Virus record (IMG/VR): IMGVR_UViG_3300023297_000104
Span: 1 to 21,507 of that record
Reading direction: 5' to 3' (one strand)
Length of the DNA: 21,507 nucleotides
Origin: a virus
Shown here: piece by piece, positions 2,971 to 12,806 of the stretch
Layout of the letters: each line of letters opens with the position of its first letter
How positions within the stretch are numbered: position 1 is the first letter of the stretch
The notes under the pieces: model-generated
Database searches by the model: none
What the model saw: the letters and a program-made list of their open reading frames with translations, nothing else
Told to the model about the DNA's origin: nothing
Translations under genes and position numbers: made by a program

Positions 2971-3018
2971 AGGATGGAATCAACATATGAATAAATGCTC
3001 TTTTACAACTGAATAAGT

Positions 3019-3045
3019 ACCGAGTGATTCTTGACGCACCCGTTC
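3019..3045 (+). repeat. Left arm of a 27-bp inverted repeat flanking one gene
   Basis: The arm reads ACCGAGT, one base, ATTCT, three bases, CGCACCCGTTC. Its reverse complement recurs at 3389-3415 with 23 of 27 positions matching; the mismatches fall in the two short spacers. The arms bracket the gene at 3075-3380. Confidence 0.85.
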
Positions 3046-3074
3046 TCATTCAATGAAGGGAATAGGTGAATAAA

Positions 3075-3380
3075 ATGAATAAAACGAGAAGGATTACTAA
3101 TAAATCAGAAGACAAGTTCGTACTACAGGTGGAATGTGATATGTCATCACTTACGCCGGAACAGGTCGAGGAGTATGCCTTCGATGCAATCTGGATTAAG
3201 GAGCAGGCCAAACTTCGGGAGTCTTCTACCAAAACCTTAGAAGGTTATGAGGGAAGTTATACCTTCACGGCCGAGCCGAAGGGCACGAAGGGAGTGAAGG
3301 ACCCTGTAAAGGCAGCCATCACTTCAATCGGTAACATGACGGAAGAGCAGAAGCAAGAACTGCGAGACGCTCTTAAATAG
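3075..3380 (+). CDS. Unknown small phage protein inside inverted repeats (paralogue of 7587 gene)
   Basis: The 101-residue protein is of unknown function. Its C-terminus, DPVKAAITSIGNMTEEQKQE then LRDALK, parallels the C-terminus of the gene at 7587 (DPVAAILGKWGTMTEAEKKD then LLNKLKK), so the two are probably distant paralogues. It ends in a predicted amphipathic helix and is charged and cytosolic. ATG at 3075 has AGGTG six bases before it; GTG at 3066, with AAGGG before it, is the alternative. Codon choice is visibly richer in G and C (GCC, CGG, CAG, CTC) than in neighbouring genes. It stands alone between 27-bp inverted repeats, suggesting a transferable cassette or an RNA-looped transcript. 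Confidence 0.7.
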   Translation: MNKTRRITNKSEDKFVLQVECDMSSLTPEQVEEYAFDAIWIKEQAKLRESSTKTLEGYEGSYTFTAEPKGTKGVKDPVKAAITSIGNMTEEQKQELRDALK

Positions 3381-3388
3381 TTAATCTT

Positions 3389-3415
3389 GAACGGGTGCGG
3401 TGAGAATTACTCGGT
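3389..3415 (-). repeat. Right arm of the 27-bp inverted repeat
   Basis: It reads GAACGGGTGCG, three bases, AGAAT, one base, ACTCGGT: the inverse of the arm at 3019-3045. It starts 8 bases after the stop codon of the enclosed gene. No target-site duplication is visible outside the two arms, and there is no T-run, so it is not a simple terminator. Confidence 0.85.
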
Positions 3416-3449
3416 AAAATTAAATAATAAATGAAAGGAGGTGATACTT

Positions 3450-3659
3450 TTGCGTCAACTAATAATTGATAAGATTAGAAGGGACTACATTAATGGTCTA
3501 AAGGAGTTACCATTCTGGGTTCTGAAACTGGCTGGTATTAGACAGAATGTAGATGGGACATATGTTAGTCTTGAACAGTTAGACTACTTAGTTGCTAATG
3601 TAAGTGATGAAATTTTATTAGTAATCTTGGATTGGCAGGCCTGTAATAAATATAGATAG
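3450..3659 (+). CDS. Unknown 69-residue protein with TTG start
   Basis: The protein begins RQLIIDKIRRDYINGLKELP after the initiator and has a hydrophobic C-terminal stretch (SDEILLVILDW). No family is recognised. The start is assigned to TTG at 3450 because a near-perfect AAAGGAGGTGA lies directly before it with 8-base spacing; the in-frame GTG at 3441 is part of that ribosome site and is unlikely to be used. It follows the inverted-repeat cassette and precedes a strong terminator at 3794, so it ends a short rightward unit. Confidence 0.6.
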   Translation: MRQLIIDKIRRDYINGLKELPFWVLKLAGIRQNVDGTYVSLEQLDYLVANVSDEILLVILDWQACNKYR

Positions 3660-3758: not shown

Positions 3759-3793
3759 TTAAATAGTCCAGTTAAGATTACCCGTTTAAAAAG

Positions 3794-3824
3794 AGGAGTA
3801 TAGGAAACTATACTCCTTTTTTTT
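3794..3824 (+). terminator. Strong intrinsic terminator
   Basis: AGGAGTATAG (3794-3803), GAAA loop, CTATACTCCT (3808-3817), then eight T residues. The 10-bp perfect stem with a GNRA-type loop and T-tract is a textbook rho-independent terminator, closing the 3075-3758 unit. Confidence 0.93.
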
Positions 3825-3889: not shown

Positions 3890-3912
3890 CTATGGTAAAT
3901 TAATTACCATAG
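3890..3912. repeat. 23-bp palindrome, copy 3 of 6 (best symmetry)
   Basis: Arms CTATGGTAA and TTACCATAG are perfect complements around a five-base AT centre. Unlike most copies it has no gene directly after it; it lies within the long non-coding region. Confidence 0.85.
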
Positions 3913-4337
3913 TGAGTAATATTACTATTACTGTTAAGTGCGTGGTGGGATTGTAATGTATGTTTGTATATATGTAACTCATGTATTCCATGTAACCGTT
4001 GTAACTGTATTCCACGTATGCTAGCCCATATCTCCCTCCATAATTAATTGATAATCCGTAGGGTTTGTACGTCTAAATGTACGTTCTAACGTAATTAAAC
4101 TGTAATGTATGCTTGTAGAAGTGTATATTAGTATGCTTAAACCTTAAAAAAAAAATTTTTTAAGAAGAGAAACAAGGAGAAGGAATACTACAAATACATA
4201 CACTACAACAATACAACACATACATATCTACATACGAGACCTACAGATTTATCAATTTTAAATGAATGGGATATGGGGTAGCATACAGGGAATACGGTTA
4301 CAATAAATACAAACATACATCGTAGTTCATTATTAAA

Positions 4338-6046: not shown

Positions 6047-6253
6047 ATGAATCATTTAACTTACAAAATAACTTTTAACTGGCACAATGAAGTTATTGAT
6101 TTCTTTCGTCACGCAAAGAATGAAGAACGAGCACTATATTACGGAATAAGTGCTCTCGCCGAAGAGGTGGGGTATAATCGCAAATTTGTAAGTGATTACA
6201 TCCTAGATAGTAAAGCCAATAGGTGGTCTGTTACACCTATGGTAAAAAAATAA
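6047..6253 (+). CDS. Unknown 68-residue protein, possible helix-turn-helix
   Basis: Begins MNHLTYKITFNWHNEVIDFF. The segment YGISALAEEVGYNRKFVSDY could be a helix-turn-helix, but the match is loose. The ATG at 6047 has GAGGAAGGG six bases upstream; an in-frame ATG at 6020 overlaps a -10-like element and lacks a ribosome site. Its last codons (PMVKK and stop) are encoded by palindrome copy 4, so the repeat has shaped the C-terminus. Confidence 0.6.
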   Translation: MNHLTYKITFNWHNEVIDFFRHAKNEERALYYGISALAEEVGYNRKFVSDYILDSKANRWSVTPMVKK

Positions 6254-6259
6254 CCATAG
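6237..6259. repeat. 23-bp palindrome, copy 4 of 6 (overlaps gene end)
   Basis: Arms CTATGGT and ACCATAG flank an A-rich centre. It supplies the final codons and TAA of the upstream gene and sits just before the GGAAGGGAG ribosome site of the gene starting at 6279. Confidence 0.85.
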
Positions 6260-6721: not shown

Positions 6722-7369
6722 ATGAAGACATTCAAGGTAGGTGACAGGGTAAGGGTGGATGAGGGGTTGTGGCGCGGGAAGGGGTCGGCAACCATTACTT
6801 CGGTAGCAAGAGAATATGATTTCATAGTCCATTACGATGACGGCGATGATTGGGCATACAACAAAGATGAACTAACCTTGTTGGAGGACACAATGGAATG
6901 TACAATAAACGAAGTAACGTACAGGCAGTTGAGGAATATCACGGTAAAGTCGCTGATACTGGCGGGGGCGAGGGATAACGATATTGACTTCTTTGCGTGG
7001 GTGTATGGCTATCTGCCTACTATCCCCATAAATGTTGCCCTCGATTACTGCACAAAAGGCCCACACGCCTGCAATGAAAAGCTCCAATGGCTCGTAGAAC
7101 AGGGATTCGTGGAGGTGGTGGAGGATGAGCAAGCCATACATGAACGAATCTATTACGACCCCGAAACCAACCGCTTCTTTAGGACAGAATTGTTCGGAAA
7201 ATTCGGACATGACTGTGAGTTTTATAAAGATGCCCACACAACGATTGGCACACAGGAGGGATCGGGAAGAAAGCTGTGGAGAAGCATACCAATAAAGTCA
7301 ATCGAAGATTTAAAGAAGTATGCTGAACTCTATAAAGATTATGGATTTAAGGTAAAAAACATGAAGTAA
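6722..7369 (+). CDS. Two-part protein with SH3/KOW-like N-terminus; foreign composition
   Basis: 215 residues. Residues about 5-55 (FKVGDRVRVDEGLWRGKGSA, ITSVAREYDFIVHYDDGDDW) resemble small SH3/KOW-like barrels that bind RNA, DNA or protein. The rest (about 58-215) has no recognised family and is mixed helix/strand, with LDYCTKGPHACNEKLQWLVE as its most distinctive stretch. An in-frame ATG at 6893 (residue 58) has GGAGG five bases before it, so a shorter C-terminal product may also be made, or two genes have fused. AGGAGGGCAGT precedes the main ATG. Codon use is clearly richer in G and C than in neighbours, suggesting recent acquisition. Confidence 0.7.
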   Translation: MKTFKVGDRVRVDEGLWRGKGSATITSVAREYDFIVHYDDGDDWAYNKDELTLLEDTMECTINEVTYRQLRNITVKSLILAGARDNDIDFFAWVYGYLPTIPINVALDYCTKGPHACNEKLQWLVEQGFVEVVEDEQAIHERIYYDPETNRFFRTELFGKFGHDCEFYKDAHTTIGTQEGSGRKLWRSIPIKSIEDLKKYAELYKDYGFKVKNMK

Positions 7370-7422: not shown

Positions 7423-7451
7423 TTGACATCTACGATAAATTATGTTACAAT
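7423..7451 (+). promoter_or_regulatory. Strong sigma70 promoter for the 7587 gene
   Basis: TTGACA (7423-7428), 17-base spacer, TACAAT (7446-7451) with TGT before the -10. It drives a leader of about 130 bases with a two-codon minigene, then a single gene ending at the terminator at 7949-7992. Confidence 0.85.
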
Positions 7452-7586: not shown

Positions 7587-7925
7587 ATGATAGAAATTAC
7601 CGCAAAGAAGGAAATAGAAGGAGTATCAAGAACCGCAACAATACTATTTAACGCTGGCGAGACCCTTGAGGAAGCAGTAGAGATGTTCACTGCTCCGGTA
7701 GTATTTACTAACGCTAAAGCGTCATTCAAGATTACCGCTCAGAGTGCCATAAGACGTTATATTACTATGGGCCTTGATGATGAAGCTATTCAGGCCAAGA
7801 TGGCTGCGTGGAAACCTGGCGTGGCAATGGAACGTAATGTTGACCCTGTTGCTGCAATACTTGGTAAATGGGGTACTATGACCGAAGCTGAGAAGAAAGA
7901 CCTTCTTAATAAACTTAAAAAGTAA
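7587..7925 (+). CDS. Unknown small phage protein, strongly expressed monocistronic unit
   Basis: 112 residues, starting MIEITAKKEIEGVSRTATIL. The C-terminal motif WKPGVAMERNVDPVAAILGK followed by MTEAEKKDLLNKLKK resembles the end of the gene at 3075, marking a paralogous pair; similar short proteins with a terminal 'DPVAAI...MTEAEK' helix occur in other phages without known function. It has its own consensus-like promoter (7423), a structured leader and a strong terminator (7949), so it is probably abundant early in infection. AAAGGAGAA precedes the ATG. Codon use is somewhat GC-richer than neighbours. Confidence 0.75.
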   Translation: MIEITAKKEIEGVSRTATILFNAGETLEEAVEMFTAPVVFTNAKASFKITAQSAIRRYITMGLDDEAIQAKMAAWKPGVAMERNVDPVAAILGKWGTMTEAEKKDLLNKLKK

Positions 7926-9195: not shown

Positions 9196-9218
9196 CTATG
9201 GTAATTTATTAACCATAG
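9196..9218. repeat. 23-bp palindrome, copy 5 of 6
   Basis: Arms CTATGGT and ACCATAG around an AT-only centre, placed between the micropeptide stop and the GGGAGG ribosome site of the gene at 9231. Confidence 0.85.
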
Positions 9219-12783: not shown

Positions 12784-12806
12784 CTATGGTAAATTTATAA
12801 CCAAAG
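12784..12806. repeat. 23-bp palindrome, copy 6 of 6 (right arm merged with ribosome site)
   Basis: Left arm CTATGGTAAAT is intact; the right arm has become ACCAAAG, which runs into GGAG to form the AAAGGAG ribosome site of the gene at 12817. Confidence 0.75.

Follow-up and report, generated by a model that had tools for sequence, protein, structure and literature searches.

Layout of the locus and the enclosed gene

The window, by which we denote the whole stretch of 21,507 nucleotides analysed (positions 1 to 21,507 of IMG/VR record IMGVR_UViG_3300023297_000104), carries on its + strand a small gene set between two complementary sequence arms. A promoter-like sequence, TTGCAT-16-TAGGAT (2948–2975, read from the sequence and with an equivalent at the same place in the related phage contig L004), is followed by the boxA-like motif TGCTCTTTTACAACTGAATA (2996–3015), the 5′ or leader strand of a long-range helix (3018–3045), the enclosed gene and, 8 nt past its stop codon, the 3′ or trailer strand (3389–3416). 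The enclosed gene runs from ATG 3075 or GTG 3066 to 3380, codes for an orphan protein of 101 or 104 amino acids, respectively, and is, as the sequence-only reading had stated, the sole gene within the repeat. The next small gene (3441–3659), an open frame with a probable start at TTG 3450 behind the ribosome-binding site AAAGGAGGTGA, lies outside the frame, with its ribosome-binding site after the trailer strand. A strong intrinsic terminator of 16 paired positions and a subsequent T run ends the group of leading genes at 3788–3823, 370 nt past the trailer strand. Its counterpart in L004 is located at 4069–4100, and new promoters are found downstream of the terminator in both phages. The framed gene is the first gene of the phage early operon.

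With a GC content of 46% and a GC3 of 0.53 the enclosed gene does exceed most of its neighbours (GC3 0.22–0.38), as had been noticed from its codon use, but this property is not unique to it because the gene at 6722–7369 has the same GC3 of 0.53. A search of viral contigs with the enclosed protein yielded two diverged relatives, in L004 and L005, with sequence identities of 47% and 44%, respectively; beyond these no relatives were detected in viral or bacterial genome contigs, and a family-wide protein profile gave a single, weak match in 398 genomes. The protein has no Pfam, PHROG or convincing PDB match, and its moderately confident structure model (pLDDT 75) has no significant fold matches. 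Neither the enclosed nor the next protein matches a PHROG or Pfam family, so that neither is recognised as a phage N protein, although such proteins are short and diverse.

A second small gene (7587–7925; 7841–8188 in L004) shares the C-terminal motif DPVxAxxxxxGxMTE with the framed gene. In the window it possesses its own strong promoter, TTGACA-17-TACAAT (7423–7451), and its own terminator, and a boxA frame is absent around it in both phages. The window furthermore contains six copies of a CTATGGTAAWTTWWTTACCATAG-like palindrome (1169–1191, 2714–2736, 3890–3912, 6237–6259, 9196–9218 and 12784–12806), of which none would be expected by chance; they probably serve a phage regulator as operators dispersed across the genome.

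A long-range helix in the + strand transcript

The inverted repeat described from the sequence as 3019–3045 and 3389–3415 is real and extends by one base at each outer end. Its 28-nt arms contain 24 Watson-Crick matches (86% complementarity) and reach a best-duplex score of 61. The 200 dinucleotide shuffles of 2990–3440 averaged 24.6 (sd 3.3) and never exceeded 36, from which a p of about 3e-7 is extrapolated. Of the four mismatches one is A-G, and the other three pair as G-U on the + (coding) strand; the repeat is therefore regarded as an RNA element and not as the end of a mobile DNA. Counting G-U, 27 of 28 positions are paired, more than the >17 bp of the leader-trailer helix in an rrn-type element. 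Folding of the region gives z = -4.85 for the + strand and z = -4.20 for the - strand. No further copies of the arm pair exist within this record, and no near match of the element was found among GenBank phages; a 15-nt arm pattern retrieved 26 stretches of viral contigs without evident relation.

Comparison with the two related phages is most informative in this respect. In L004 and L005 the framed gene adjoins the same divergent gene, in the same place and orientation as in the window. An inverted repeat of unlike sequence is obvious around the gene in L005, and one becomes apparent in L004 when G-U pairs are counted. In a gapless alignment of the arms of the three phages, 15 of 27 pairs are changed on both sides with pairing kept, and 4 more differ via G-U. 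The duplex energy of each phage's own arms amounts to -43 to -46 kcal/mol, while arms exchanged between phages yield -9 to -33 kcal/mol, and the sense duplex is more stable than the antisense one in all three. Pairwise two-sided compensation is also present in L335/L339 and between the tandem units of L301. The long-range helix is thus well supported and exists as RNA on the + strand, in agreement with one of the options raised beforehand, a long-range RNA stem. The phage with the closest DNA polymerase, a Desulfofustis phage (46%), showed no such element in the same scan.

Recombinase sites and transposon ends are expected to conserve their sequence rather than their pairing. That inverted arms flank just one gene of slightly elevated GC had also suggested a DNA element, either a cassette bounded by terminal inverted repeats and mobilised in trans or a pair of recombinase sites inverting the gene. 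The arms, however, diverge between homologous phages while pairing persists, the G-U bias points to one strand, the gene occupies an identical place and orientation in three phages, and the record holds no second copy. Covariation and strand bias lead us to reject both the DNA cassette and the inversion, and we give a DNA element of either kind next to no chance.

boxA and recurrence of the element in viral contigs

The sequence-only reading had passed over the G-U nature of the mismatches on the + strand, the boxA-like motif, the promoter-like sequence and the likeness to the pre-rRNA helix. The block TGnTCTTTnAnAAnTGAATA, located directly upstream of the helix, is the most conserved part of the leader in the window, L004 and L005 and is more conserved than the helix itself; its first 15 bases stop 9–10 nt ahead of the helix CGAG common to the three phages. 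It fits the boxA form of rRNA operons, and shuffles of the window contain no match to the motif at ≤3 mismatches. When bacterial genomes were scanned with TGNTCTTTNACAACTGAATA, rRNA marks accompanied 17 of 116 matches, 15 of these lying 79–226 nt ahead of the point where a 16S or 23S begins, and a copy from a 16S-23S spacer, TGATCTTTTACAACTGAATA, differs from the window boxA in one position. The boxA motifs of L004 and L005 constitute an independent confirmation, both contigs having been retrieved through the protein without use of boxA. In L004 the motif is preceded by a promoter-like pair, TTGACA-17-TAGGAT. Judged by its sequence, assignment of the window motif as a boxA is well supported, and since boxA and pairing arms are present in all three phages, the gene is considered to reside in a pre-rRNA-like frame of boxA, leader strand, gene and trailer strand.

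The arrangement is not restricted to these phages. The pattern TGNTCTTTGACAANTGAATA occurs in 101 viral stretches and its reversed form in 2, an approximately 50-fold enrichment, and a long-range helix with a score ≥40 starts near boxA in 19 of the 98 matches with enough sequence, compared with 0 of 490 arm-shuffled controls, both counts including a few near-identical contigs. An earlier, looser match set had given the same outcome. No rRNA marks were found at the loci of the 98-match test. As exact patterns were used in the scans, the abundance represents a lower bound. Among 47 non-redundant elements, whose stems were picked by a score treating G-U and A-C alike, 74 G-U pairs face 28 A-C mismatches (p 6e-6), and it is therefore in the transcript preceded by boxA that the helix forms.

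The loop of 21 of 23 strong elements harbors an open reading frame whose stop lies ≤30 nt from the trailer strand, and just one of those 21 frames lacks a ribosome-binding site; the helices of strong ORF-framing elements measure 24–36 bp. A promoter-like sequence ≤80 nt upstream of boxA is present in 6 of the 23 strong elements vs 11 of 460 random positions. Frames follow one another in tandem in L301 (three) and L005 (two), every unit having a boxA and arms of its own. Several framed proteins (window, L306, L069, L141, L284) show a distant mutual resemblance and belong to no named family, and the framed proteins of the other elements have no GenBank phage match either. Neither the window nor the related phage loci have an Rfam match.

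Near-identical arms behind boxA, GTGAATATGACTCT / AGAGTCATATTC (in L032, L034, L125, L127 and L140) and GTGAATATGACCCT / AGGGTCATATTCA (in L045, L061 and L122), frame different genes in different contigs. Tandem boxA-helix elements at L165 3187 and at L340 3686 and 3986 have no clear ORF in the loop and contain a local terminator hairpin.

These data bear on the possibility that the helix is solely a device for mRNA stability or RNase III processing and that the boxA-like motif binds no Nus factors. A helix of the length observed would suffice for double-strand nucleases, and its sequence is free to drift, as such a role would allow. Against it, boxA is better conserved than the helix and strongly enriched over the reversed pattern in viral contigs. 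We hold this explanation to be improbable.

A second class of elements, referred to as Clostridia-type (e.g. L133, L120, L117, L051 and L326), differs from the window class in that the trailer strand doubles as the first half of an intrinsic terminator, an overlap not encountered in the window class, where the ribosome-binding site of the next gene comes after the trailer strand. The leader strand of these elements resembles the second half of the terminator and would therefore act as an antiterminator. Since the Clostridia-type helix competes with a terminator, the job of the helix may differ between the classes.

Long-range boxA-linked antiterminators, in which a segment after boxA imitates a terminator's second half located 200–800 nt away so that the same strand is contested, were seen in L133, L120, L117, L126, L091, L150, L033, L105, L046, L129, L138, L051, L322 and L326. 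In L117 an epsC (EAR) antiterminator RNA (6072–6182), the one exception to the negative Rfam result above, is located about 1.3 kb after the boxA-helix element of the same viral contig. Bacterial genomes (L183, L215, L158, L172, L230, L188, L235, L256 and others) likewise contain boxA followed by a covarying stem, which encloses a non-coding RNA of about 230–300 nt with the pemK RNA motif in several; small genes in the vicinity of these loci may belong to integrative elements.

A proposed function and its relation to known systems

The combination of boxA and a leader-trailer helix counts as a hallmark of rRNA synthesis. For the antitermination complex to assemble on E. coli rRNA, boxA is both required and sufficient; a leader-trailer helix of >17 bp is critical there as well, and it has been proposed that this helix is promoted when boxA is tethered to the polymerase (PMC10250234). 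We favour, as somewhat the more probable reading, that the window element is an mRNA version of the rRNA-precursor frame, with a Nus-bound boxA, a helix and probable release by a nuclease. Nus factor binding, tethering, cleavage and benefit are steps that we infer for the phage frame as follows. Transcription would start shortly upstream of boxA, and the host NusB-S10 (NusE) complex together with other Nus factors would bind the nascent boxA and remain on the polymerase. The leader strand would thereby be held at the polymerase and the growing transcript of the gene looped out, until the trailer strand, emerging past the stop codon, pairs with the leader strand to form the helix of about 28 bp. 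Both the entire reading frame and its ribosome-binding site would stay unpaired in the loop, and an RNase III-type enzyme would probably cut the helix to give a short separate message. The outcome would be rRNA-like transcription and an own stable, processed mRNA for the first early gene.

Alternatively, antitermination might be the main job, with the boxA-loaded polymerase passing the terminator at 3788–3823 into the early operon and the helix aiding assembly or release of the complex. The presence of boxA and of a strong terminator 370 nt past the trailer strand, likewise in L004, would fit this idea, as would the Clostridia-type elements, in which a terminator overlaps the trailer strand and the leader strand resembles the second half of that terminator. 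Yet read-through needs no helix around exactly one ORF, and since the terminator is followed by separate promoters in the window and in L004, read-through is not obviously needed. We therefore rate antitermination as the main job rather unlikely; as an added job, the window element may still allow read-through to later genes of the operon.

Returning to the mRNA version of the rRNA frame, the occurrence of such frames in many uncultivated phages suggests that host rRNA transcription machinery is used for selected phage mRNAs. We see an even chance that this constitutes a widespread, undescribed route by which single or tandem early genes are made and matured via the host rRNA antitermination and leader-trailer pathway, yielding individually framed mRNAs. 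If true, phages would be redirecting the rRNA transcription complex to particular mRNAs. The element offers a small, portable system of about 400 nt in which to ask if polymerase carrying boxA acts as a chaperone of long-range RNA pairing, and the boxA-helix frame is an easily searched signature of leading genes in phage operons.

With respect to known systems, the window lacks the conserved terminal repeats or crossover copies of a mobile or invertible segment. The pemK RNA (RF02913) loci of bacterial genomes share with the phage frame a boxA followed by a covarying long-range stem, but their stem encloses an RNA of about 230–300 nt, mostly without an ORF and with a known structured motif, whereas the phage frame encloses a gene. 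The suhB mRNA leader carries a boxA outside rRNA, which there lowers expression (PMC5725501); both cases thus involve boxA in an mRNA leader, while the parts of that paper considered here make no mention of a gene-enclosing helix. Lambdoid nut sites likewise place boxA close to where an early phage transcript begins. There a boxB hairpin adjoins boxA, whereas in the window only 7 nt and no boxB separate boxA from the helix, the partner strand is about 370 nt away, and no N-like protein was recognised. No description of a boxA-helix around a phage mRNA was found in the open-access literature searched. While boxA outside rRNA and in lambdoid nut sites is already known, the combination of boxA and a helix enclosing one gene appears to be new.

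The closest likeness is to the pre-rRNA frame. A protein gene without Rfam match and not rRNA was found inside the window frame, and the arms of the phages have nothing in common in sequence with rRNA or with each other. The boxA-helix gap of 7 nt is shorter than the 18–19 nt to boxC in Enterobacteriaceae (PMC10250234), which weighs against our favoured reading, as do the terminator and promoters beyond the frame and the terminator-competing helix of the Clostridia-type class. The phage frame encloses a protein gene with its own ribosome-binding site and the pre-rRNA frame an rRNA. In rRNA operons, 16S and 23S have one frame each. In both systems a long helix joins distant ends, each product in tandem has a frame of its own, and promoter, boxA, leader strand, enclosed RNA and trailer strand follow in the same order (PMC10250234).
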